This document shows positions 39,201-56,150 of a DNA stretch of 64,000 nucleotides, piece by piece. The position numbers were made by a program, and so were the translations under genes. The notes below the pieces were generated by a model. It was given only the letters and a program-made list of their open reading frames with translations. It was not told the DNA's origin and did no database searches. Source of the stretch: Tetmemena sp. SeJ-2015 (lineage: Eukaryota; Ciliophora; Spirotrichea; Sporadotrichida; Oxytrichidae); assembly GCA_027382625.1 (NCBI GenBank), contig JAJKFJ010022933.1, forward strand, positions 62,001 to 126,000, in the 5' to 3' direction. Each line of letters begins with the position of its first letter. The stretch's first letter is position 1.

Positions 39201-42200
39201 TGAAGAGTTTCAACTTCGTGGCAGTTGAAATTATAGATTCACCCCATGATCCGTAGCTTGTTCGATAGCTAATCAAAAATTAATATCAGTTTCTTCTTTA
39301 AACATCTTCATAGCACCTCTCAGCAGCAAGATATGATTCGAGCAATTTCATTAGATCCAAATATAATGTCAATTAACTATTGTGTCGCTTATAACTCTGT
39401 ACCGAAGCATTCCAGAGAATAGTTGCAAGGATTAATAGTTCTTAGATTTTTTATGCTGAATCGAATGGTGTAATAATTATTCAAATCTGAGACCCTTCAA
39501 CAGCCTCTGATTTTCTCCATTTTTAATTTAATATATAAATTAATTTGATTTTACATTAAATTCTCTGCCATACTGACAGAGTGCCATTAAAGTTTTCTTA
39601 TGATGCAAAAACAAATCTCGTTACTTTAAATGATTAAGAGACCTAATACCCCAACTAAGATATATAGTCGTAGACTGAAAGAGCTACTCTAATTGTACTT
39701 ATATTAGAAACTTGTAAGTCTTGAATAATCTAAAGCGGCTTGAATCCTATGGAGTAATTTTAGTACAAGCGGCTCTTATTATTTGCCTGCACATTCCAAA
39801 GATAAAATAAGTTTAAAGATATAAATAGGAGGAGTTTTGAGATTATTAAATTGCTGCAGCTTCAAAAAGAGTGCAAGATGGAAAGAAAATTGTTAAATCA
39901 TCGATGAGGAATTATCCAAATTTATTAGTTGATATACTACACAAGGGAAGTGTGTTAGAAATTGAGTCAGAAACAATAGTGATTTCTATAGTCTCGTTTT
40001 ACCATACTTAACCTTCTTAATCTTTTATTCTTGCAATAAATTCAAATGACTAAAACTCTTGATCCTAGTCAGAGATATTAATTTTCACACATATATTTTA
40101 ACTTCAATAGATATTTTCTATAATTATTTGCTATATAGATATTATATACCACTAAACTCAAATTGTTATTATGATTTTAAATAGAGACAATTGTTCCTTG
40201 AGGTATTTATAGCAAGCATCCATTTGTTAATTGATTGCATTAACTCTAAGTTAAAAGTGCAACTGGGCAAATGAACTAGCAGGTAATTTACCTATTTTAA
40301 TCTGGATCATATGAATCTTAAAGGCTAAGTTGGAACGAATGAATTCGAGGATTGAGAATTTTATGATTAGCTGACAGTTTAAGTTTCAGATCAGATGGTA
40401 ATATTTTCAAAACAAATTCATCAATTAAATGATACTCTGAAGTCCAATTTGGAGCAGAGAAAGTTATTGTTATCTGGAAAGCTATTTCATTTATATCTTT
40501 TGGAAGAACTAAAGAAGATTTCAGGATTAAACTAAGTCCATCGATATCATTCATCCAAAATTTATTAACTCCTGTTGTTAAAGTAGTCCATTCTACTTTA
40601 GATATCTAGACATCGTCGCAATAGTTAAAATTAATAGTAAAAGGGGTATATTCTGATTGAATAAGGAAAGATTTGATCTCTCTTGACTGTTGCTATTCCA
40701 TCCTTCGCACTTAATTTAAAGTCTAAACAGCTATTGAAATTTTGTTCGACTACAGTTACAGAGATTTCTTATGAGTCACTTAGCTTTCCATTTATTTAAA
40801 CCTGTAATCTTATCATAAATTGACTTCCAACTTGATTTAGCTAAGATCATTCTCTTTAAGCCTTAGAAATCGTAAGTGAAGCTCCACTAGTTTAAGAACA
40901 AATAGATGATAAATTATCTGGACAGTCCCAATAAAATACTTTATTGAGTTGCTGCTCTTGATCAGGATCGTATGAAAGGCTCGCATTTATTGTAATTGAT
41001 TATTCTAGTGAGACACTAATACTGGTTCCTTGCTCAATAACTACTATTGGAGGTGACTATACTCTTGAAATTTACAGTGACTTTACTATATAGCTGTGCT
41101 CAATCCATAGACTGGACTAGTAAGAGAAGAGAAGAACAAAGTCTATCTAATAGATTTGAGAGACCTTCATTTCTAAAATATACTCACTTGACATTGAAAA
41201 CTGGTTAGATTATTGATAGTTGTAATCATCCGCAGGAGAGAACACATAGAATTTTGAATTTATTGGCTTAAAACTAGAGCAACTATTGCTGTCAAGAATA
41301 GCTGTGAATTTTAAGTCTGTTCGATTTTAATAAGAGAATTTTAAATTAGAGATGTCTTATTGGAAGGTAATAGCGCAGTTTTAGAAGCTCTACATCTTGA
41401 GTTTGTATTTTTAGACTGCAAATGGAAAAGGTTTAATGACTTCTGATTCAGGATAAGCATTATTTTGGATGTCTAATAAATAATTAATTAATACGACCGA
41501 GGTGGTAGATAAAATCTTCATTCCTAAATTCAGCCTATCAAATTAAAATAAATGGGCTCATGTCAACTTTTAAGCCATTAATGAAACTTTATGCTGATAT
41601 CAGAGTGGAATCGTAAGCCCAAGTATAGAACAATGAATATTAAAATAAATGATAATTAATGATGAGCTAGGGGAGTCAGGATCATATGAAGATGAAGCAT
41701 CAATAGAAAGAGTACTTTCAAAATCAATTTCTCCATTTTGGATGTTTGTATCAGCAACAACTTATATTCGAGCTTTCTATATTAGAATATTCAGAGTAAA
41801 GTTCTTCCAGTTAGTATTGTCAATTTAAGCACTGTAATTAACTTGTATTTAGAAACCAGGTTCTAAAGTATCTCTTAAGTCTGCTCTAATAGAAGCATAG
41901 AGCCCACAAATTATTTTTATTTATCCCATCGGAACTAATGTCTAAAAATTAATTAGGATTGGTATATCCATCAACACTCCATAGTGTATAAGTTATGCTA
42001 TGTTAGATCAGCGAATCTTCGTCTGAAGCATCAATCGATGGTTTGCAATCCAGGTAGTATGTAGGAGCTATTAAGAAAACTTCCTGTTGCTTGGTAAAGT
42101 ATTGATAGTTCTGAAGTTATATAGTAGGACACATGTTGTATTCAGGCTGGTAGAAGCTTGTGGTAAAAGTTTTAGATGTTTAATAATTGAGAAAGCTTGA

Positions 42201-44521
42201 AGAAACCTAAACTGTGAACAAGTATTGGGCGTAGTTTACTATTCTTAGCTTGTGAAGAGGAATATAAATAAAGAATTTTTGCTATCTTAGTGGCTTGGTT
42301 AATTTTGCACAATTAATCCTAATCTGATTAGGAGTAGAAAAGGGATTTCTAACAAGTCAGAGAATATCTCAAATCTGGTATAGGGAAGTAATCTACATTT
42401 ACTTTAGATGAGCTTGCATCAATAATCAAATATGACTAATCAGATCGAGATATTCTTGATTTAATTTCTTTTATGATAAGGATTAATGGCTGTGATATGA
42501 AGTTTATTGTTTAAGAGTCTATTAAGTTTCTAGTTTAGGTATTTTGCATAAATGAGTATTAGCTTTAGATTTTTATTTGACTTAAATTGATTGGGAATTT
42601 GATGAATGTTAGGACTTTGCTGTCTGTTGAAAGGGAATAGTAAGTAGCATCAATATTTTCAGAAGACCATTAAATTGATTATGAAGTAACAGGTGTCAGA
42701 CAATCATTAGAGATGTCAAGAGATAGGGATAAATTTGCTGGATTCATTAAAGAGGACACTTTTATTTAATGATTAGAATTGTAAGTAGGTTCTATTTCTA
42801 TGCTGGGACACGAAGGAGTATCATCAAATTTAAAATTTATTTTGAACAAATTAGCATACTCAAAATTAGGATAATGCTGATTTACTAAGAGATCGTTCTA
42901 TTAGAATTCCTTGAATCAATCATTAAGGTAAATATGAAAGTGTAAGTAGAGTCTAAAGAGAGAGAGTCTTCATAAATTAGGAGATTCAGACTCTGCTGTG
43001 TATTTGAATTTGAAATAGAATCTAAAAGCTATCCTTAATTTAAAGTATTGCTGTTTGAGGTAGAATCAGAATTGTTAACTTATAAATAGCTCCAAACAAT
43101 TGAAACATCATCGTCTATTTAAAATACTTTCTCAACATAGATATACTAAATATCTGCTTTGATCTCTATCAAATCATTTCCCTAACTATCTTCAGTTAGA
43201 GTACGAAACAAGTCAATTGTGAAGTCATCTCTAATGCAGCAAGACTATTCTGAATTTAATAAAGTTGAAGGAGGGCAAATTATTAGGTCTTTGTCATTAA
43301 CATAAGAAATTGGTTCAAGCTGCGAATAAGAGAAGAAATCAGTTTGCTAATACTTAGATTAGGAAATATTTTGTATCCTGGTCCCATAGCCAGAATCAAG
43401 TGAGAGAAATACTAAAAGTCCACTTCGCTAATTAAGTTATAATAAATTGGTTGAAAGTGATTAGAATCTGAATCTGTTAATGTCTTCTTAAGATTTAGCT
43501 CTTGCCCATATTCTCACTTATCTGATTATTCCATTAAATTTGGTTAAGTTATTTTGATCTATAGTGTTTCCAATGACTGTCCTTATTGACTAACCATTTG
43601 GAAGAAAATAATAAAAAGGGTGATTGTATGTGAGTCTATAGTTAAATTTTACAACAAATTCTCATCGTTTTTATTGTAAGCATACAATTTTAGCCACTGA
43701 TCACCAGCTGCTCCATTACTTACACAAGCCACATGAACCCACTCTTCTTTCGGAACGGCTTCATTTAAAAAAGCACTATCTAAGAACCCTTGCTGGCTTG
43801 ATGAATATGGATTGCATTCAATCTAAGCACTATCATTCAGATTATTCAGTTAAATTATGATCAAAGGAGTAGATGACTGCTAATAATTTGACATAATAAC
43901 TGCATTAGATTGCTGATTACTAGTGAAGCCTTTGAATTTGATCCAACTTTCAAAAGTATAAAAGTTGGATGAGCTCGGAACGAAAGCTTAGAAGATCCCT
44001 CCACTTTTTTAATTATCTCCATCATTAAATAGGGTGTAAAATTAAATGTACCTTTAGAGATCCTTGCAAACAAGGCCATCGAATTAAGATGAAGATTGAC
44101 TTTGATTGCATGGAGGCCTAATCTATTTGAATTGCAGATTCTAAGTTGATATCACATACTTTGAAGCTTGACTGCTTGAGTTTGCAGCAAAATTTGAGGT
44201 AAAGTTCCCTTCATAGACTTGTTTTACCTTATCTTTATCATTAATTCCAATAGAATCAATTGAAGACTGAGAGAAAAACTCTCTTGAAAAATTGTAATTA
44301 GCAACAACCTACCCATTCAAGCTATAATTCAAAGACCTAAGGTACATTTCTTTATCAGAACTGTCTATTATAAGCTTATCATTTAAGATATTATCTTAGG
44401 ATAGTATTGGATTAAAGGGTTGAGAAAGAGAAAATATCTTCTAAACAAAATCTTGGACAATATTAGAAATCAATATTTAAAGGCATTTTTTTCACAGATT
44501 TTAAAGCATTTGAATATTCAT
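36250..44521 (-). CDS. Giant surface protein: LamG-like N-terminus, beta-rich ectodomain, C-terminal membrane region
   Basis: The start at ATG 44521-44519 becomes an open frame only after removing a 24-nt IES (44476-44499). N-terminus: a LamG/concanavalin-like domain (SNFYTFESWIKFKGFTSNQQ; VPKEEWVHVACVSNG, 44000-43690). 43500-38000 encodes thousands of bases of beta-rich sequence with repeating Ig/PKD-like character, broken by many frame changes. Near 37790-37200 a membrane region appears: LRIIIPTGYLTFILIMIGLA, then HSLSRLFGAIYLQFNPFLNY, LLLNNYFLMISGESLLIFMG, FGFVFVVSFATNLVISLL. The C-terminus is a charged Gln/Glu-rich tail ending near 36250. The layout (huge ectodomain, then a first helix and further spans) resembles polycystin-1/REJ-type ciliate proteins; that is inference from architecture only. 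The region could contain more than one gene. Confidence 0.5.
44476..44499. other. IES, 24 nt, removes an early TGA (pointer TTTAAAG)
   Basis: TTTAAAG lies at 44476-44482 and 44500-44506. On the coding (minus) strand, removing 24 nt joins MNIQMLQ to ILISNIVQDFV in the same frame and deletes the TGA that would end translation after nine codons. Confidence 0.65.
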
Positions 44522-44596
44522 TTTTGCACACTAAAGAAGTAAAGAAGCTAATGATTTATAATAATATCATATCAAATCCTTAAATCAATCACAAAG

Positions 44597-45007
<411 letters not shown>

Positions 45008-45197
45008 GATATTCCTGAATATCAAGCAAGATTAAAATATAAAGCCAAGGCTATTAATTTCTAATACATTATATTTCAAAAGTTTTAGCAGATATTAAAT
45101 TCCATTATTTAAACTAAATATAGCTAGTGGATTGGATCAAGTGAATAATTTCAATCATCATACCATATTTATGAAGATGCTCAAGAATGATTTCATA

Positions 45198-45681
45198 GCA
45201 AGAGATATCTATGCAAAAGAAGGAGGTGTTAAAGCATTCTACAAGGGGTGAGATTATTATTGCAAACTGATTGATGTATAGGCTTTACTATTAATTTATG
45301 CCACTTTGAGATTAGGAATTTACTTCAACTTCTTAGAATTTAGGATGCAGGAGCTTTCGGTTCATTTTAAAACTAAAACTCAACTTTACCCGAGGCAGAA
45401 AGAAGAAAATAGTCAATTTTTGAAATGAAGGAGAGAATGACTGCCAAGTTTGGCAAGGGTCACGATAAAAGCATCATGAAATAACTAAGCTCTAGAAGAT
45501 GAAGAGATTACCAGATGGTACTATGCCATATAAGGGATTCATTGACTGTGCCACCAAGACTGCCACAAGAGAAGGAATCACTGGTTTCTGGGCTGGTCTC
45601 CCTACTTACTACTTCAGAGTGGGACCTCATTCCATCATCACTCTCCTATCAGCTGAGTTTTTCAGAAAGAAGTTCTTCTGA
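45198..45681 (+). other. Carrier gene, even MDS block (2-4-6)
   Basis: Holds MDS2 (45198-45331), MDS4 (45428-45478) and MDS6 (45487-45681) in order, separated by IESs of 96 nt (45332-45427) and 8 nt (45479-45486). These encode the second half of repeat 1, a 17-codon linker before repeat 3, and the C-terminal half of repeat 3. Confidence 0.9.
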
Positions 45682-46786
45682 CGCATATGACTTTAGAAAC
45701 AAATCTGATAGGTCAATTGCTCAAATCTTATCCTTACTTAACTTAACTTTGCACGAAATATTTACACTCATCTAGCTAGATCTTATATATTAGCTAAATA
45801 TGACGATAGCAAATCTAAGTTTCATACACGTAATGTATGATTCAAAAAGTGAGTAAGAAGTTTTATAAAATTAGCATGATGATGATGTGGAGTGATTCTG
45901 CATTAACTTGTGAGATATATTTTATCGAGTTGTCGTCATAGATTCTAAATTTATTAAATCTCCTCATTTAAATATGGCCCAAAAAAGTAAGCCCCCATTT
46001 CTCTAATCCTAAATATAAGATTCATGCTTATTTAAAGTGAAGAACTTCGCTATCGGAGGTCTTTCAGGAATGACTGCTACCTCAGTTGTATGTGACTTAA
46101 ACAACCTTGTTAATGAATGCTATAGATTCAACCTATTGATATGGTGAAAGTGAGAATTCAGCTTAAGAGTGAGGCTCAAGGAGGCAACTTGTCCCCATTC
46201 AAAATTGCAAGAGTATTAAATGGATTGTACTGATATTCTCAATTAGTATAGGCTTGATTCTGCTCTCTTAAGACAGGCAATCTATGTCATTTGATAATCA
46301 AAATTCTAATGACTTTCAACTTGAGTGACTATGTGAAGAATCAAGTTAACGGAGGTGCTAACTTGACCATGTTGTAGAAGACAGGAGTATCACTCTTTGC
46401 AGGTATTAAATAATGCTTGGTTCATTTATTGGCACTCCCTGCGATTTAGTTCTCGTTAGAATGCAGTCCGACTCAACTTTATCCTTCTTACTACTTCTTT
46501 ATTCGTAGTTACTTAGAAGAAACTATAAGAATGTGTTTGATGCCTTCAGAAGAATTGTCTCTGAGGAAGGTATCACCTCTTGCTGGAATGGTGCTGCTCC
46601 TACCATTTGCAGAGCTATGTCTCTAAACGTAGCTCAACTAGTCACCTATGATGAAGTCAAGGAGAGAATAAACCTGATATTTATTCAAATTATAGAGAAA
46701 GCATCATGTTTACCGCATCTATGGTTTCAGCTGTTGCCACTAGCACAGCATCTCTCCCCTTCGACAACATTAAAACCAAGCTCTAG
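45198..46786 (+). CDS. Mitochondrial carrier, 2-oxoglutarate/malate type (SLC25A11-like); scrambled germline gene, 6 MDSs
   Basis: Inner-membrane solute carrier of three repeated domains. Protein order is MDS1 45974-46213, MDS2 45198-45331, MDS3 46315-46669, MDS4 45428-45478, MDS5 46698-46786, MDS6 45487-45681 (TGA 45679-45681). Pointers: 1/2 GCAAGAG, 2/3 TTCAACTT, 3/4 AAGGAGAGAAT, 4/5 AAAGCATCATG, 5/6 AAGCTCTAG. Every join keeps the frame and matches SLC25A11: FAIGGLSGMTA, PIDMVKVRIQL (repeat 1 signature), YATLRLGIYFNLSDY, GTPCDLVLVRM (repeat 2), RRNYKNVFDAF, SMVSAVATSTASLPFDNIK (repeat 3), GLPTYYFRVGPHS. MDS1 has a GTATGT...TATAG intron (46088-46125). MDS3 has small IESs at 46405-46412 (AT) and 46488-46508 (TTACT). 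The stretch 45247-45300 in MDS2 is not fully resolved. The substrate is inferred from overall similarity. Confidence 0.92.
45682..45973. other. AT-rich spacer between even and odd MDS blocks of the carrier gene
   Basis: No coding segment seen. It follows the carrier stop codon (end of MDS6) and precedes the start codon (MDS1). It therefore contains both the 3' flank and the 5' flank of the future macronuclear molecule, in back-to-front order. Confidence 0.5.
45974..46786 (+). other. Carrier gene, odd MDS block (1-3-5)
   Basis: Holds MDS1 (45974-46213, start codon), MDS3 (46315-46669) and MDS5 (46698-46786), separated by IESs of 101 nt (46214-46314) and 28 nt (46670-46697). Even and odd pieces interleave only through the pointers listed for the gene. 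Confidence 0.9.
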
Positions 46787-46866
46787 ATAAAAAATATCTA
46801 TTTTATTCTATTCAATTAGGCTAACTATTTATTGAATTATCAATATATAAGATAAAATAGTTAAAT

Positions 46867-48295
46867 ATGAGCTTCTTCCTTTGGTTCTTTATAGTTAACA
46901 CCGTCATAGGAGTTATCTTGTTCTAAATTTATTAATTTAATGTTCGAATGGGCGTGGGCAAATTCTAAGAAACTTAGAAATCTCGATCTAATTTATGAAA
47001 GCAAGTATCCAGCCTGGAGAAGGGCAGATAGAAAATGGGAAAAGATGCATTACTATCTAAACTAAGAATAAATTTAACTGCTATTAGAAAATATTTAACC
47101 TATGCAATTTTAAAATTGATATAAATCACTGATTTTAGTTTATTCACTCCGTTTATACTCCTGATTAATTTGGCTCTATCGTCTTTGTATCAACCACGTA
47201 CAGGTAATAATTGTGACGTAATAAAGCTTTTTTAGTATTCTCGACATTGGCCACGGATACAATGCTAATCTATGATACTAGATTAAATCTTAAAGATTTA
47301 TAATTTAATGTTTAAGAATCCTCCTCGAGGATGGAGATTGACTGTCGTTAATTACTTTTGACTACAGCGAATATCTAGGCAAAGATTACAAGAAAACACA
47401 GGTTCTCCCTAAACATGCTCCAAGTGCTTACGTTTGGAGTGGGCATACTTCATGGATTGACAATCATTAATATATTGTCTATATAATAAAATTAAAAAAA
47501 TTAATCTAATCTCTAAGATTTTTGTTTAAATATTATTTAGGTTTTATCCATTTTTTTCTTCTTCCATAATACTTAGTCTAGAGTTTCTTTGAGCAGTGAA
47601 TTAGGGGGATTTTCTAGAATGAAGATTTGTCCGATAAAATTATAAAAATTGAAGTTGAATGGAATGAACCAAGTAATAGATAAATTTATGAAGAAGACCT
47701 TCCTAGACATATCATACTATCCATAATTTTTGTGCTGAAAATTTATCATGACAGATTTAATATATTTTTATCATCAATCTCTATTTCTTCAGTAACCAAA
47801 GTATCACATACTCTTCCTTATAGTTTAAGAGGTTTTAGGTCTAAATTTAAGTTACTCTTAGCTTCTAGATATTAGTAGTCTTTTTAATTTAATGACTAAA
47901 TATGTTTTAAAGAATTGTGCTTTATTCTTAGAAACTTAATTCCTTGTGAGTGAATTAAAGGCAATAATGGAATTTTTAAGAATTGAGTTAAACTTACTTG
48001 GGAAAAGAATCATTAGCAAAGACCTAGTTTAAAAGTACCTCCTTCGAAAGTTGTTTTTTAATGGACAATAAAATGAATAGAGCAGGAACTACTGAAGAAA
48101 AGGATAAGATCATTGAAGAATTAGTTGTGCACTTTAAATTCTGATAATGAAGGTCAGCCATCACCCATTGGAGTCATGACATCCATCCCTTCAAAAGAGG
48201 AGTCTTTGTTGGAAATGCCTCAATCAAGCCAGGATTCAAAATTAAGATACTTAGCTGTAGGATACAGAAAGCCAAATAAAACTAAGGAAGAATGA
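46867..48295 (+). other. Acyltransferase gene, odd MDS block (1-3-5-7-9-11-13)
   Basis: Pointer copies here, with their partners in the even block: AAATTC 46960/48368; TGAAAGCAAGTAT 46996/48385; CGTTTATACTCCT 47150/48411; TAGATT 47279/48447; TCGTTAATTACTT 47345/48458; TTTGACTAC 47357/48538; ATTGACAATC 47456/48565; TGAATAGAGCA 48074/48672; GAAG 48115/48741; AAAAGAGG 48194/48816; AAGCCAGGATTC 48227/48840; TAGCTGTAGGATA 48252/49121. All pieces are in the same orientation. GAAG (MDS9/10) is the weakest pair. Confidence 0.88.
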
Positions 48296-49133
48296 AATTG
48301 TTAGTTAGTGATCAATTTATTTCCTAATCTTTTCTTATATTTTTGTATTCATCATAGTTTGAATAAAAAATTCGATCAGGCAGTTGAAAGCAAGTATTTA
48401 ATTAATTTAGCGTTTATACTCCTAAGGGCTTTCCTAGCAGTTGGCTTAGATTTATTTTCGTTAATTACTTGATTAGATTCGTGGCTGCTTGCAATTACCT
48501 TGCAAGTGGAGTATGGTATAGAATCAATGAAATGGACTTTGACTACTACTACTTATTCTACTAAATTGACAATCTGATTTGTATGGCAGCATATGGAAGC
48601 ACTTACTTAAATATGATAAGCAAAGGTGCCTTTTGTAGGAAATATCTTAACTGTCCATGGAATGATGTACGTGAATAGAGCAATAGTAATGGATTCTCAA
48701 TTAGGTTTAAGACTAAAGCAAACTGAGAATGAAAAAAATAGAAGTCTAATAAATAAGAAGGATTGGAGTCTTCCCTGAGGGAACTACTTTCAACAATAGC
48801 TATATTCTGCCCTTAAAAAGAGGGTGTGAATTTATAGTTAAGCCAGGATTCTTAGATTATGATTGTCCTTATGTGCACGCTCACTAAGATCAAAAGCACA
48901 AACTGCAGCAATATATTCTTCAGTTCTCTTCCTTCGAGATCTTTTGCAGGGTGGGTACTCTTCCAATATTCGTCCCTAACGATTACATGTATGAGAAATT
49001 CAAGGATAAGGGAACTGAAAAGTGGGAGATTTACGCCTGGGTCATCAGAGATATTCTATCCAAGGCCTCAGGAAAGCCCAAATTTGATATTGAACTTAAG
49101 ACCAAGTTCGATTACGAGCTAGCTGTAGGATAG
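46867..49133 (+). CDS. Membrane glycerophospholipid acyltransferase (LPLAT family, LPCAT/AGPAT-like); scrambled gene, 13 MDSs
   Basis: Family: acyl-CoA-dependent acylation of lysophospholipids at the ER. Odd MDSs: 1 46867-46965, 3 46996-47162, 5 47279-47357, 7 47357-47465, 9 48074-48118, 11 48194-48238, 13 48252-48295 (TGA). Even MDSs: 2 48368-48397, 4 48411-48452, 6 48458-48546, 8 48565-48682, 10 48741-48823, 12 48840-49133. Joined in numerical order they give one frame: membrane N-terminus (SFFLWFFIVNTVIGVILF), ESKYPAWRRADRKWEKM, GWRLTVVNYLIRFVAACNYL, the H-x4-D catalytic motif in SGHTSWIDNLICM, YVNRAGTTEEKDK, VFPEGTTFNNSYILPLKRG (acceptor-binding motif), SIKPGFLDYD, TLPIFVPNDYMYEKFKDKG and a C-terminus RKPNKTKEE. 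Pointer lengths 4-13 nt. MDS3 contains an unresolved insert (about 47060-47135). Confidence 0.9.
47466..48073. other. Long IES inside the odd block of the acyltransferase gene
   Basis: 608 nt between MDS7 and MDS9, AT-rich. One plus-strand frame near 47640-47720 looks faintly protein-like (EVEWNEPSNRQIYEEDLPRH), but I cannot place it in the acyltransferase. The stretch is much longer than the other IESs of this gene, so it may hide a further MDS or part of another gene. Confidence 0.4.
48368..49133 (+). other. Acyltransferase gene, even MDS block (2-4-6-8-10-12)
   Basis: Six even-numbered MDSs in order: 48368-48397, 48411-48452, 48458-48546, 48565-48682, 48741-48823, 48840-49133. Gaps between them are only 13, 5, 18, 58 and 16 nt. 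Read alone, the block encodes alternate slices of the protein and no complete motif set: MDS8 begins at the IDN of the HTSWIDN motif and MDS10 carries the FPEGT motif. Confidence 0.88.
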
Positions 49134-49192
49134 AAGATATATTCATCATCATGCTAAAAATTAACATTATCTAGGGTAATTAATTAAAATAC

Positions 49193-50489
49193 TCATTCGA
49201 TTTTATTCTGTCTTGATCTGAGCTTTGATATTAAGTATTCACCTGACGACACAATTATTGCGCCTAATATTCCAAAAGCCAATCCAAGTAATTCCATCAT
49301 CTTCAATTAAAATATTAAAGCATCTCATCTTCAACGACTATCCTGACACATAAGTTGTAAGCAGAGTCAGGTAAATGATTTAAGTAAGCATTAAAGAAGC
49401 AGCTGGTCCGGCCAATCCATTTGCAACAGCTTGCACTATTAAAATCTTGCCAGTTGCTATGAAGCAACTTCCTATAGAGCCTATTAAGAAATCTCCCCAC
49501 TCAACTTCACCTTGAAATAGGAAGTATACTCCTATTACAAAGTAGATTTAATACTCGAATATAAGCCCATCAATTGAGACATCCCACGAGCTATAGGCTT
49601 TCTTATAAAATCTCACAAATATATGCTTGATAGATAGGGATAAAGGTGAGAGGAGAGCAAGTACTATGCTCATATAGGCATTCCTGCTAACATCCTCTTA
49701 GTTTATCTCAGTTAGTGCTTCCTGTGAAGTTTCGTTGGTACTTAGACTTAAGCATACCACACATCCAATCATTGTTGCTATTCCTGTGAGTTGCACTCGG
49801 GAAACCTTCTCTTTGAAGAATATGTAGAATATTATCAAGTTGTAAACTGAGGTTAGAGAGTTCAGCGATATAATAACTCCTTGGTTGATGTTTCCAAGTT
49901 TAGCATAGTAGAAAGCGAATGTGATAGTGGTTAAATTTAGGAGATTAGTGACTCCATTTCCAAAAAGAGGAATGAGGTTTGAGTATTTGAAGGATTTGTC
50001 TTCGTTAAATAAGTTGGACTTGAGATAGTTTATGTAAGTTCCATGAAAATTAAATTAAGAATTGACTTATTCCGCAAACATTACTGCATTCGATAAATCG
50101 CAAGGATAATATAAGGTATTAGACCTACATATCCTATGGTTTTTATACCGTTTCTTGATATTATAGTTAGTGTATAGTTTCCTAGTGCCATCATGAGACC
50201 AGTCATTATTCTAAAAAAATATTAAATATTTCACAAATAACCAAAGATTATCTTAATTATTAAGTAAAATCTGATAGCTTTAATATAAATATATCTATCT
50301 AAAAATATAACAATAAAATTGACTCCTTAAATAATTGGATAATACAAAATATAAATTAAGGCTTGCACTATCCATAATTTACTTTGCTTTTAAATTGGAT
50401 CTTTCTTCAAAAGAGGCTCTTTTAGCTCATCCAGTTGATTCTTAGAATCTTGTAATTAAAGCTTTTACATTTATTATATTCGATTTCAT
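49193..50489 (-). CDS. Drug/metabolite transporter superfamily (EamA/SLC35-like) membrane protein
   Basis: Multi-pass transporter. From ATG 50489 (MKSNIINVKALITR), a hydrophilic start with an ELKEPLLKK stretch leads to a first span (WIVQALIYILYYPIIQGVNF). After an insert (about 50220-50300) come LMMALGNYTLTIISRNGIKT, GYVGLIPYIILAIY, FAFYYAKLGNINQGVIISLN, LTSVYNLIIFYIFFKEKVSR, LTGIATMIGCVVCLSLS, YMSIVLALLSPLSLSIKH, FVIGVYFLFQGEVEWGDFL, GLAGPAASLMLTQIIYLTLL and a last span LGLAFGILGAIIVSSGEYLI; stop at 49193-49195. Internal pseudo-symmetry and the ISLNSLTSVYNLI...FFKEK pattern fit DMT carriers. About ten spans can be counted. The substrate is unknown. A small insert near 49310-49345 separates the last two spans. 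Confidence 0.75.
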
Positions 50490-50632
50490 TTTAGCTGGGT
50501 GCAATGATTTATAAATTTATTTGGTCAAATGTATTTGCTTATATTTCTGCAGAGAATCATAAAGACGATTATGATTTTATGTCTTGAGGTAAAAAATAAA
50601 ATCTAAGTATAGAAGACAATCTCTGAATCAAA

Positions 50633-52504
50633 ATGGAGAAATCATAGAAATTCGAATAGATTCAGTCAGCATCTTAGCTCTGCTTGATCACTCAAAGATA
50701 GGTAATTTATTAGAGTTAATGAGCTTAGAAAGCTTAGTTAGATTCAATTATTGCAAGATACTAGAGCCTGAAAACAATTGAAAACGGAGAGGTGGTCTAA
50801 TTGTATGAAGAGCTACTTTTAGTTGAGGATGAAGTTAATTTTTACTTTGATAGCTGTCAGCAAACTCTCGTAACTATTTTTAGATTCGATAATATAAAAC
50901 CTATTTTAGAGCGATGCTGGGCTGGAGAGCTTGACTCTTATTTGCAGAACCATTAATGAGGATCCGCATTTGATGAAGATTAGAGTAGATAATTAAGTTA
51001 CATATGAGAGTAGGTCCTAGAGGGATGAGTCAATGCAATAAAGCCTGAATAATAGTAAAATCAGTCAAAAACAAATGAGTAATGCAAATAATGGGATTGA
51101 AAATGGATCACTCTATAATAATTTGAATGAGGATGAAGATTCTTCACTTAGCTAGTAGGATTCAATATCAATCAACGTGGAACCATACCTGATAAGTTAC
51201 GATGACTAAAAAGTTATTTCAGCTGAGAAAGATAAGCATCATCATCCTATAGACTAGAGATAGGAAAGTGCTTTGGTCAAAACTTAAGATGAGGAATAAA
51301 AAATTATCTAAGAATCCGCTGAAGAAGAGGAAAAGTATTTTATGGCAAGGCATCACAGCTCAGATGACTTGTCGAGATTTTAGGAGGAATAAAAACACTC
51401 ATAGTTTAATTATAAGGTAGAAGAGATGTTAAATGAAATTCTCTTTCTCTAGGAGGAGTACAGAATTGATGAAGCTGGAGAGAAACTTAAAGCAGTAAAA
51501 TAGTTTATAGAAGATGCAAAAACAGATGTTATTATTTTTGAAGGGTATTTTTTATGAGAATAGAGAAGGAGTAGATGAGTTGTTGAGAGTTAAAATTACA
51601 GAAAACTAAAAAATATAAAAACTAGAGAGGGATCTTTTAGAGGTTAGCAGAATTTTGCGATTATTGGATGATGATTCCGGATATGCAACTGTGTCATAAG
51701 ACAAAAAGAAGGGTTTAAAGATGCAAGTAAAAAAGGTAGATGGAGAAAAATTCGTTACATTCAGATTCGAAGCAAAGGAGTAAAAGATACACCTTTTCAA
51801 TTTACTGTGCATGATTTATGAGACAGATTTATACTAGCTTTGGTTTCCCTAGTGCAAAAGATCTTACACCGTAAGCAAAATTTATAACATTAAATTTTTT
51901 CTAGATTAAAAAGCTTGGAAAGGCTTGCAAGATGGCTTATGCAGAATTTTTCTTTCCTTTCCCTATGTCTAATAGAGAAGGAATCCTTTACGGATTCGGA
52001 AATAACAGAGTAAAGACAAATGGTTCTATTCTTGTAATGGCAAAAAGTTTGAGTTAAATAAGCGATCCTATGGTTCAACAAGAGGTTGGGGAGTTGAATT
52101 TCTAGAGACGAAAAGAAGGGCTGGTTGAGATGCAAATATTGACTTATGGCTTTGAAATAACACCAATTAGTGCAAACGAGCTCACTCTGAGATCTGTCAT
52201 GCAGTTCAATCCATAAATAGAGAGGATACCTGAGTCACTTATCAATTGGGTTACGAAATAATTTCTAGACATGATGATTTCTAAGATGATAAGTTTCAGC
52301 AAAGGATTCAAAGGCACTTAGTATGAGAAGAGACTTAAAGCAACTGAAAATGCAGTTTTTTACTTATGGATTCAACAGTAAAAATTATAATTATTTGTGC
52401 ACATTTAATTGAGTATATCCGCGATTTTTATAATGACAAAGGATGGGCTTATCAGCCTTATACTTTTTGACAAATTAACGTGTACTATATCTTGTTTTTA
52501 TTGA
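50633..52504 (+). CDS. START-like lipid-binding domain protein
   Basis: The ATG at 50633 opens a Gln/Glu-rich N-terminal half (about 50640-51500, one or more frame changes), then a domain resembling START/lipid-transfer folds: IHLFNLLCMIYETDLYQLWF (about 51790), KACKMAYAEFFFPFPMSNRE, ILYGFGNNRVKTNGSILVMA, VEMQILTYGFEITPISANEL, TLRSVMQFNPQIERIPESLI, NWVTKQFLDMMISKM (about 52250). The pattern FNLI...YE.DL...WFP, followed by FPFP.S.RE and an IPESLINWV helix, matches ciliate START-like proteins. An intron-like gap lies at 51875-51905. The frame stays open to TGA 52502-52504, but the conserved part ends near 52380. Ligand unknown. Confidence 0.6.
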
Positions 52505-52538
52505 AACAATTGAATATTTTTGGGAAATTATAAATATC

Positions 52539-53850
52539 ATGATAGATAAATAGAAGAAGTAGAAAGTTTCTTCTTTTCCACATTTTTCCTAATTTTAAGA
52601 CTCTTATAAAGATGTTGAAGAGAATCTATATTAAAACAGGAGGATAGTGAACACTTCCCATCGAGCATTTCAGTCTGTTCAAAAGCACAAAAAGTTGATT
52701 ATAAACAGTTTAAGGCTTTTAAGTGACTAGTCTGCAGAAGAAATACTTCAAAACTGCTAAGATAAAAAATAAAAACTCACCATTTTGAGAGATGCTTTGA
52801 ATGAACCTTAAAAAGCTAAGCAATAAAAGCAGAATTTAATGGAAAGTTATCCCATTTCAAAAGCAGTAGTAGAAAACTTTATAAAAAGACAAAAAGAGTT
52901 CTAAGTTGTATAACCTAGAGTTAAAATGATGAAGAGGCTTAAATCTGCTAGAAATTCAAACCAAAATGTAAAAAATGAAATAAATTAAAAAGAGTTAAAT
53001 TCAGATAAAGCTTTCAATCCCTATTTAGAAGAGGAATAAACAACTGCGCAAAGCTTTCATACAGTTCTTTTGAATAATCAGATATAGATAGAGGAAAATA
53101 AGGAGTCTCATTCTTAATTTAAAGATAGATAACCTACTAGCTATTAAAAAAGGTGAATAGTTTTCCGAACAAAATCTGTTTAGCTAGAAGCGCCAATAAG
53201 AGCCTTATCATCTGATCTATTATATTAATTCAGATTTATTTCCTGATCAGGATTCTTAATCTAGGAAAACTGAATTTATATTTTAAAAAAACTGATCAAG
53301 AAGACTTGAATGATCCAATTAATTTAAATAGTGCCTCTAAATTCTCTCGGAGAGCAACTTCTAGATCAAGAAATTCATTTGACATGAAAAACCATCAACA
53401 TAAATCTGAGTTTTCTGCGTTCCCACTAAGAGAGCATAAATTGGAAATTTTAAACAGTTAAAGAAGATATGACTTACTTAATAATGAGGTATTCTAAAGT
53501 TATAATGACCTTCCTCAAGCCCTGACAGAAAGAGAGACTGATTAGTAAGCTACTTCTAAATAAATAAACATACTTTCATCTAAAATATTTCCTCTCATGG
53601 ATAGATAAAACTCTTCTAAGTCCATATCTAGGCTCTCTAAGCATATAAACTATGTGAACTCTTCGATTAAAGGAAACTGTTAAAGAAGATAAAAACCAGC
53701 TGATGTTATCAGCAAGAATAATTAAAATGAAGTCATATCACCTAGTCCTACTAGGAAATATTTCATCAGCAAATACTATGCCAATAATTTCATTAAAAAG
53801 GAAGATGAAAAGTAAAAAAAGTTAAGGAAATTTCAACTTGGTGCATTCAT
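52539..53850 (+). CDS. Hypothetical Lys/Gln/Ser-rich protein
   Basis: The ATG at 52539 opens a frame of about 205 codons to TGA at about 53155. A second frame of similar composition runs from about 53290 to 53850 (DLNDPINLNSASKFSRRATS; FPLMDRQNSSKSISRLSKHI; RKYFISKYYANNFIKKEDEK). Between them (53155-53290) lie two short frames separated by likely IESs. Basic, low-complexity, no domain recognised. The 3' end is set where the protein-like composition stops; the frame itself continues without TGA. Confidence 0.4.
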
Positions 53851-54045
53851 CAGTTAATTTATGTTAATACATTAATATAAAAAAAGGATAAATCAACGGT
53901 ATCTATTATTATTTTTTCCTTAATTGATAAAGATTGTGATATGTGATATATACCTTCTGATTAAAGATTTTTTTGGATTGCATTAATCTCTCTAAAAATG
54001 TTATAAAAGCTACTCATTTTACATTCAAAATTTTTTTTTATAAAT

Positions 54046-54650
54046 ATGTCATTACACTCAAATATATATTGGTACCAGATTTATCCAAAGAATCTTAAAG
54101 AAAAAATTTAATTAGTAGGTAATAAAGTAGAGGGATAGATTCATCTATAAGTTTTGATAAATAAAAGTGGCTTAAGAAAAACACTCTGCCTGATTATGAA
54201 TTCATTTGAAAATTAGCTTCCTCCATCAATCTATCAACCAATCATTCTTAAAGGTATTTGAGGAAAGATGTGTAATTAATTTATTATAAATCTTTTGGTA
54301 TTAGTTAGTGCTTTGTGAAGCTATGATGTAATCTAGGAATACTTAGGAATCTGTGGCTCCCTTGAGGACCTCAATTCTGTTTAGCATGCAAAAGCGATTT
54401 GACCCAGTGCCAAACAAATCCAAGAAATATAACGACGATCTTAATCACTTGATAACGTGGAATCCTATTTCTAAGGGGTCAGAAAGCTTTAAAAGTTAGA
54501 GTAACTGCGTCAAGTCAAATAATCAAAGCAGAAAAGAAACGCAACCAGATTCTGACGAAGATTCTAATAGAACTCACTATAGCCTAGACAAATAATATAA
54601 AATAAACTCATTTAATAAAGTAAAGAGTATAAAATTATGTTTAACTCTGA
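54046..54650 (+). CDS. Hypothetical small protein in at least two exons
   Basis: The ATG at 54046 opens SLHSNIYWYQIYPKNLKEKI..., ending near 54240 with QLPPSIYQPIILK followed by GTATTTGAGG, a possible 5' splice site. After about 70 nt, a second protein-like frame (VAPLRTSILFSMQKRFDPVP; KKYNDDLNHLITWNPISKGS; RKETQPDSDEDSNRTHYSLD) runs past 54600. No family recognised, and the joint is not resolved. Confidence 0.4.
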
Positions 54651-54952
54651 AAAGTTAAAAATAGATAGTTTTTTTTTTTTAAAATTAGTAATTATTACAA
54701 AGAAGAGTCTATTGTGAATAGAAATGACAGCTAACATCTATATTCTTACAAATTAATGTGAATTCAATAAAAATTTTCGTTTATAGATGGTATAAGAAAT
54801 TTTGTCAGTTATCTTTAATTTTGAAATATGCTTGATTTATTTCGCAACAAAAACAAGCAATCTAAAACGTCAGATCACATATAAATTTTGTAAGGATAAT
54901 GAAATATTAAAGATCAAGAATTTAATCTTTATTTTTTTTCTTAATTATAAAA
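54651..54952. other. AT-rich spacer with T11 run
   Basis: No convincing gene. It contains a T-rich run at about 54669-54680. A short frame starting at about 54828 (MLDLFRNKNKQSKTSDHIQ) ends after about 25 codons. Confidence 0.4.
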
Positions 54953-56150
54953 ATGAGGTTATAATTTAAGCAATAGTTGAGAAATTCAAATCACATATAA
55001 AGGAAACTGGTTTCCAAAAGAAATTCACTTGCTTCTAACTATGAAGTTGAGAATAAAAAAGAGACTCCCTATCAAGATTATATTCAGCGAAAGTAAAATG
55101 TTCTCGACCATAAGTTACAAAAGATAAATATATTCAACTTATCTTCCTTATATTTAACAGAGGGAGAAATCAACTAAACTTAAGTGTAATAAATCTAGAG
55201 AGCCAAAAATCTACTGAGTCCCTCACTAATTACCATTTAGCTGAACAAAATAGAGGAAATTCAGCCAAGTATTCTAAAAGGGTACTAATTTCTAGAAGAT
55301 TTATTTATTTTTATGACCTACGACGTCGATTGGTTTTGATGGTCAAAAATCTACTTGCAATCTTAATTAATCACAAGTTACTCTACACCCTTACTCCACG
55401 GAATAAAATGAGAAGAATGCTGTTCCTACTTCAAACTTTAAATTACTGAGTGAGAGTTGCTTCATGCCTTAAGGTTTCCTTTAAGAAGCATTTTTGGGTG
55501 GCGATTCTTTATATTTTTAATTGTGGCAAGGTAAAGTCAAATATGTATCTGAGATTAAAACAACAGCGACAGCAAAAGAAGAATCTGATGAGCAATAATA
55601 GTAAAGGAGTAGAACATTAATCGACTCCATTATAAGAGAAAAGGAAAGCTTAAGCCAAAGAATCCTAAATTTTAAAGTTAAAAGAGATTTTGAATGAATT
55701 CTCTGTTCGAAAATCATCCTCAAAAATTAATAATTAGTATGAGTAAAAGATGCTATCTAATATGAATATCAAAGTTCAAATTATCATAACTTGTATATCA
55801 TTTAGTCCTAAGGAATGGTCATTCAACAGTATTGTTAAATGTAAACGGAACACATTAGGTTGAAGATAGCAGATCCCATCACTCGAAGTAAAAAGCTTGC
55901 CTGAATATATCTGGCTAGGCTTTACCCCAAGCTCAAATGCAAAACTAAACAAAAGATCATTATAGGAGGAATAGCATTTGTCTTTCTAAGCCCTCTCAAA
56001 AGCATTAAAGTGAATTATTACTTTGGGAGTTTAATTTTACTATCTTTAATTTCAAATTGAGTATGACCTCACCACTCCTGATCTTCTCTCTTATAATAGT
56101 TACTAGACTGATGCTAAATTAAAACCTCGCTAAACTTTAATACTCAATGT
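54953..56150 (+). CDS. Hypothetical protein, possibly lipid/beta-domain related, unrecognised
   Basis: ATG 54953 (MRLQFKQQLRNSNHIQRKLV). Frame 1 runs to TGA at about 55336 (LSPSLITIQLNKIEEIQPSI; FLEDLFIFMTYDVDWF). The same frame resumes immediately after it (KLLSESCFMPQGFLQEAFLG; GDSLYFQLWQGKVKYVSEIK) to TGA at about 55695, and a third open frame follows to about 56150 (LVLRNGHSTVLLNVNGTHQV). The pattern LYFQLWQGKVKYVSEIK suggests a beta-strand-rich domain. The single in-frame TGA at 55336 implies an insert there. No motif gives a function. Confidence 0.4.

Follow-up and report, generated by a model that had tools for sequence, protein, structure and literature searches.

The window, the whole stretch of 64,000 nucleotides (nts) that we analyzed, belongs to contig C3569, in an assembly of 146 Mb and 5213 contigs. 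On its plus strand lie two blocks, A (46867–48295) and B (about 48372–49132), which hold complementary, alternating slices of one acyltransferase of the PF01553 family. According to the pointer map, the slices follow each other along the DNA in the order 1-3-5-7-9-11-13-15-17 and then 2-4-6-8-10-12-14-16, and all the odd slices are found in one block and all the even slices in the other, units 2 and 4 being less certain. Two alternating blocks with the odd one first had been proposed in the original prediction, and this arrangement was borne out by the pointer map and the joined frame.

Directly upstream of the locus, 46515–46670 encodes a fragment of a mitochondrial carrier (PF00153, E = 2.1 × 10-11), part of a carrier that had earlier been called scrambled. 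The minus strand at 49242–50426 contains an open frame of 395 amino acids with a weak match to EamA-like transporters that falls short of the cut-off (22.8 against 28.2 bits).

At all 16 joins of the map, the earlier slice closes with an exact repeat (pointer) of 6 to 13 nts that also opens the slice numbered next. The pointers occur in the same order in blocks A and B: TCGATC, TGAAAGCAAGTAT, CGTTTATACTCCT, TTGGCT and TCGTTAATTACTT are pointers 1 to 5, TTTGACTAC, ATTGACAATC, ACTTACTT, AGCAAAG and TGAATAGAGCA are pointers 6 to 10, and AATTAG, AATGAA, ATTGGAGTC, AAAAGAGG, AAGCCAGGATTC and TAGCTGTAGGATA are pointers 11 to 16. AATTAG and AATGAA have more than one occurrence within a block. The locus had been described as 13 segments with 12 repeat pairs, ten of them exact and 6–13 nts long; the length range held, the counts were corrected to 17 units and 16 pointers, and all 16 are exact, including AAAAGAGG (8 nts), which had been listed apart from the ten. 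In place of GAAG, given as a weak pointer, AATGAA (48146–48151 and 48728–48733) fits better, being in frame and ungapped to the homologues.

All the units are on the plus strand. Unit 1 (block A, 46867–46988) runs from the start ATG to pointer 1, with support from the frame and an ungapped match to P0006 (NTFIGVLLIEWAW and NTVIGVILFEWAW, respectively). Unit 2 (block B, 48372–48397) lies between the exact repeats of pointers 1 and 2, which are 7 nts apart, and unit 3 (block A, 46996–47162), from pointer 2 to 3, is supported by exact repeats, the frame and the P0006 alignment. Unit 4 (block B, 48411–48446) extends between the exact repeats of pointers 3 and 4, and is followed in the joined order by unit 5 (block A, 47170–47357; pointers 4 to 5), unit 6 (block B, 48458–48546; pointers 5 to 6) and unit 7 (block A, 47357–47465; pointers 6 to 7), which encodes ...WSGHTSWIDN. 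The order continues with units 8 (block B, 48565–48608; pointers 7 to 8), 9 (block A, 47992–48021; pointers 8 to 9), 10 (block B, 48619–48682; pointers 9 to 10), 11 (block A, 48074–48124; pointers 10 to 11), 12 (block B, 48699–48733; pointers 11 to 12) and 13 (block A, 48146–48175; pointers 12 to 13). Unit 14 (block B, 48762–48823; pointers 13 to 14) encodes FPEGTT, units 15 (block A, 48193–48237) and 16 (block B, 48840–49132) extend from pointer 14 to 15 and from pointer 15 to 16, and unit 17 (block A, 48252–48295) runs from pointer 16 to the stop codon TGA at 48293–48295. Units 5–11 and 13–17 are supported by the pointer-aware alignment described below, exact repeats and/or the joined frame, and units 6–11 and 13–16 also by the pointer-blind alignment.

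When the block is switched at each pointer and four stretches of block A are dropped, the result is 1098 nts, or 365 codons followed by the TGA, starting at the ATG at 46867, with the last even slice ending at 49132. This start and the continuous frame to the TGA at 48293, with HTSWID and FPEGTT rebuilt, had been anticipated in the original prediction. The joined frame contains one TAA, read as glutamine, and neither a TAG nor an earlier TGA; block A read straight meets a stop after 43 codons. Pointer 7, ATTGACAATC, with copies at 47456–47465 and 48565–48574, encodes IDN and divides HTSWIDN between units 7 and 8, a split that had also been noticed before. In block A, pointers 5 and 6 have one base in common, 47357, leaving no internal eliminated sequence (IES) between units 5 and 7. 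Unit 6 would go in at 47357 without any removal from block A. The one-base overlap and the four slices with 7–17 nts between pointers offer test points for the joining mechanism.

The IESs between the pointers are 7, 7, none, 526, 52, 21, 17 and 14 nts long in block A and 13, 11, 18, 10, 16, 28 and 16 nts long in block B. The 526-nt IES between units 7 and 9 (47466–47991, plus strand), to which no homologue match is assigned, stands among block A IESs of 7–52 nts. The four stretches dropped from within block A units went unmentioned in the original prediction. Three of them are likely to be conventional IESs, judging from the frame and the homologues: 46924–46945 in unit 1 (pointer GTTC), 47060–47142 in unit 3 (pointer TA) and 47271–47320 in unit 5 (pointer AATC, or TAA, which gives one lysine more). 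An intron was considered for 47060–47142 and rejected, there being no GT near the start of the stretch. The fourth, 47204–47235 in unit 5, is 32 nts long, has the form GT...AG and, by the same two lines of evidence, looks like an RNA intron; introns of Strombidium cf. sulcatum are described in PMC10901763 as mostly 28–42 nts.

The least certain parts of the map are units 2, 4 and 12 and these four gaps. Units 3b, 4 and 5a were placed by eye, using the frame, the pointers CGTTTATACTCCT and TTGGCT and the GT...AG stretch, and were afterwards checked against P0006; the N-terminal joins 3/4 and 4/5 combine by-eye placement with weak conservation. Unit 4 aligns without gaps to P0001 and P0006, is weakly conserved (3 of 9 residues identical to P0001), and its replacement by the block A stretch breaks the frame. 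A profile search with three homologues over the N-terminal joins preferred other, low-scoring paths, and it was unable to recover the map because the 2-nt joins of the map, TA and AG, were disallowed. Unit 12 was recovered by the pointer-aware alignment at one of three settings and missed by the pointer-blind one; it is ungapped to P0012, and the frame breaks if it is left out.

The repeats were compared with chance expectation. The colinear chain of repeats of at least 9 nts between blocks A and B totals 112 nts, whereas 60 dinucleotide shuffles averaged 39 nts and never exceeded 65. The blocks share four 13-mers; in 200 shuffles the average was 0.06 and the highest count 2. For a point drawn at random on a randomly chosen A/B diagonal, the probability of a run of at least 6 nts nearby was about 0.01, and that of a 13-nt run was 6.5 × 10-5; both are upper figures because the 200,000 draws included the real pointers. 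A dynamic programme using only pointers and codon bias gave 22, 14, 10 or 2 joins depending on the penalty; the repeats alone are insufficient to fix the map. Since a single assembly is the source, one may ask whether pieces of one ordinary gene were mixed by an assembly error, but 16 exact repeats that are colinear and placed so as to keep the frame, with some slices as short as a few tens of bases, are unlike mis-assembly, and a DNA search of the assembly with the locus returned one copy only, the locus itself. We regard such an error as extremely unlikely.

Homologues were used as an independent test of the joins. The joined protein matched P0012, which was read from a single unscrambled contig (the longest being of 968 bases), at 142 of 172 residues without a gap, and the match spans 10 of the 16 scrambled joins; P0012 reaches from join 6/7 to join 15/16, and its edge just meets one more, at pointer 5. 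Identity to P0006 from Stylonychia lemnae was 158 of 357 with three gap positions, and identity to P0001, which from its number range we take to be of Oxytricha trifallax, was 179 of 336 aligned residues. When the 16 scrambled joins and the four within block A are counted together, all 20 fell in stretches where the alignment to P0006 is ungapped, and 19 of 20 did so for P0001. A gap lies close to the AATC join in both alignments.

A pointer-blind alignment of P0012 to both strands of 40000–56000, run at a jump cost of 24 and with no knowledge of the repeats, made nine jumps. All eight between-block jumps lay exactly on the diagonals of listed 7–12 nt repeats, and the ninth was a two-base slip at the place expected for unit 12. 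With jump costs of 12, 16 and 20, the joins at TTTGACTAC, ATTGACAATC, ACTTACTT, AGCAAAG, TGAATAGAGCA and AAAAGAGG were unchanged, and spurious short segments appeared at unit 12 and, at a cost of 12, also near unit 16. For P0001 the pointer-blind alignment was too noisy at jump costs of 6–12; the diagonals of TGAATAGAGCA, AAAAGAGG and TAGCTGTAGGATA nevertheless carried joins.

In the pointer-aware alignment to P0001, a jump was allowed at any exact repeat of at least 4 nts, forward or back. The score was 807 with both blocks, 323 with block A alone and 466 with block B alone, in agreement with the earlier claim that neither block is enough by itself. In controls, the highest scores were 126 for 42 other placements in the window and 147 for 20 shuffled queries; the alignment without jumps scored 387, from 48678–49136. 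The last 13 segments of the path alternate A, B, A and so on to A, and their 12 joins are on 12 of the 16 listed pointers. Two further settings left the joins unchanged except around units 11–13, and at each of the three settings residues 35–68 of P0001 were left unresolved and unit 2 was unused.

The alignments to P0001 and P0012 switch back and forth between the blocks; that is, the coding slices are out of order. The same alignments bear on the map of the original prediction, a scrambled gene with 13 segments and 12 pointers including GAAG. Most of its landmarks are correct, but both P0012 and P0001 require nine more block changes between HTSWIDN and the stop, and 13 segments allow five; this version of the scrambled gene is very improbable. 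They bear as well on the idea that two tandem gene copies have decayed to pseudogenes and are never joined by the cell. In its favour, duplication is put forward in PMC9797194 as the origin of odd-even loci. The slices, however, are complementary rather than overlapping, and the paired stretches are dissimilar apart from the pointers; moreover, all the slices are open, conservation extends along the whole joined protein, and both HTSWID and FPEGTT are intact. We therefore give very little credence to a pair of pseudogenes, and the 17-unit scrambled gene is the reading followed below.

The joined protein scored 44.4 bits against PF01553, for which the cut-off is 23, the result expected in the original prediction from a profile search with the joined frame. 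The H-x4-D catalytic motif and the PEG motif are marks of acyltransferases, and HTSWID and FPEGTT, corresponding to them, are intact and at the expected places in the joined frame. A profile built from five family members matched the PlsC structure 5KYM over residues 145–254 (E = 1 × 10-4); its second structure match, phosphofructokinase 1ZXX (E = 0.016), was taken as chance. The likeness to PlsC-type proteins, 5KYM and PF01553, thus consists of the score above the cut-off, the profile match to 5KYM and the placement of the two motifs, whereas in the searches made the regions outside the domain were matched by proteins of this narrower family only. From this sequence evidence, acyltransferase activity is predicted for the joined protein, and the enzyme may acylate a lysophospholipid or glycerol phosphate.

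When the unjoined assembly was searched with the PF01553 profile, 11 acyltransferase places were found, none of them at the locus. A scrambled gene of this kind can be invisible to ordinary annotation, as the domain profile misses the unjoined locus. Relatives of 30–38% identity are located on C1949, C3788 and C2275. Acyltransferase matches with identical scores were seen on the contig pairs C1866/C3720 and C1943/C3964, in the case of C1866 and C3720 also at identical coordinates, which suggests that these are duplicate or haplotype contigs of the assembly.

TGA as stop, TAA and TAG as glutamine codons and C4A4 telomere repeats are marks of spirotrich ciliates. In the assembly, C4A4 telomere-type repeats gave 67 matches, and among them nine contigs carry the repeat from base 1. 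These contig starts, together with the TGA stop and the TAA read as glutamine, fit a spirotrich ciliate.

What is directly seen is a set of repeats that come in the same order in blocks A and B, a joined frame that stays open for 365 codons, and a joined order with which homologues read from unscrambled sequence agree. With these observations we are highly confident that the locus is the germline (micronuclear) precursor of one predicted lysophospholipid acyltransferase (LPLAT) gene, whose 17 slices would be reordered at 16 pointers. The window is likely to be micronuclear DNA, to judge from its organisation, and the PF01553 score and the unscrambled homologues in the joined order give good support to the predicted micronuclear odd-even scrambled LPLAT gene. 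The nature of the gene given in the original prediction, alternating two-block slices of an LPLAT, thus stands, with its counts and one pointer replaced. During macronuclear development, slices 1 to 17 would be ordered by joining at the 16 short exact repeats, and the cell would remove the DNA between the slices. Joining would probably be guided by template RNA of the old macronucleus, a mechanism described in Oxytricha.

The locus is a further example of a known odd-even kind, and the arrangement itself is already well described. Thousands of scrambled genes are reported for Tetmemena, Oxytricha and Euplotes woodruffi in PMC9797194, with scrambled pointers longer than others, and one count in PMC10901763 puts scrambled Oxytricha chromosomes at 29.2%. 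The TEBP-alpha gene of Oxytricha trifallax, as presented in PMC2394655, has 17 macronuclear-destined segments (MDSs), mostly alternating, and IESs down to 4 nts; the present locus resembles it in the odd-then-even order, the number of MDSs, the pointers of a few to about 13 nts and the presence of both very short and conventional IESs. In that description, TEBP-alpha departs from strict alternation (1-3-5-7-10-12-2-4-6-8-9-11-13-...) and its 3′ part follows in simple numerical order, whereas the present locus, in another gene and species, alternates throughout all 17 and has two pointers overlapping by one base with no IES. Odd-even loci are treated as repeat words in PMC5940158 (M1M3M5 M2M4 = 1234 1234). 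The present locus, whose pointers run from 1 to 16 twice in succession, is a pure repeat word and differs in length only from the loci described there. The number of scrambled junctions, 16, compares with 20 in the most scrambled E. woodruffi gene of PMC9797194. As a base-resolved odd-even locus, it places 16 scrambled joins in 2.3 kb of germline assembly.

In the model published in PMC9797194, odd-even loci are produced by local duplication and decay of the copies in alternation. Paralogy of IESs and MDSs, first hinted at by imperfect repeats, failed tests of both similarity and length: comparison of IESs with the MDSs replaced found no similarity in 14 testable pairs (lowest P = 0.15), and correlation between IES and MDS lengths was absent (rho = 0.02, 15 pairs, the block A lengths including the in-block gaps). 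This missing trace of duplication speaks neither for nor against the model, because weaker MDS/IES similarity is reported for older loci in PMC9797194.

When single units were replaced by the stretch of the other block, 9 of 15 replacements broke the frame. The frame survives replacement of units 2, 3, 7, 10, 11 and 15, and these six were therefore decided by homologues. Alternative use of germline segments is known in Oxytricha (PMC4684698) and forms the background to a combinatorial reading, in which the cell would assemble more than one protein by picking the slice of either block between identical pointers; we judge this very unlikely. Unit 2 is the best candidate for it and also the least secure unit of the map: blocks A and B each offer an open stretch of 20 nts, and the peptide reads LD-QAV-ESKY or LD-LIY-ESKY depending on the one used. 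Only the polar residues of homologues at this position favour block B, which is on this basis the putative, still uncertain source of unit 2. The open alternative of equal length for this unit offers a further test point for the joining mechanism.
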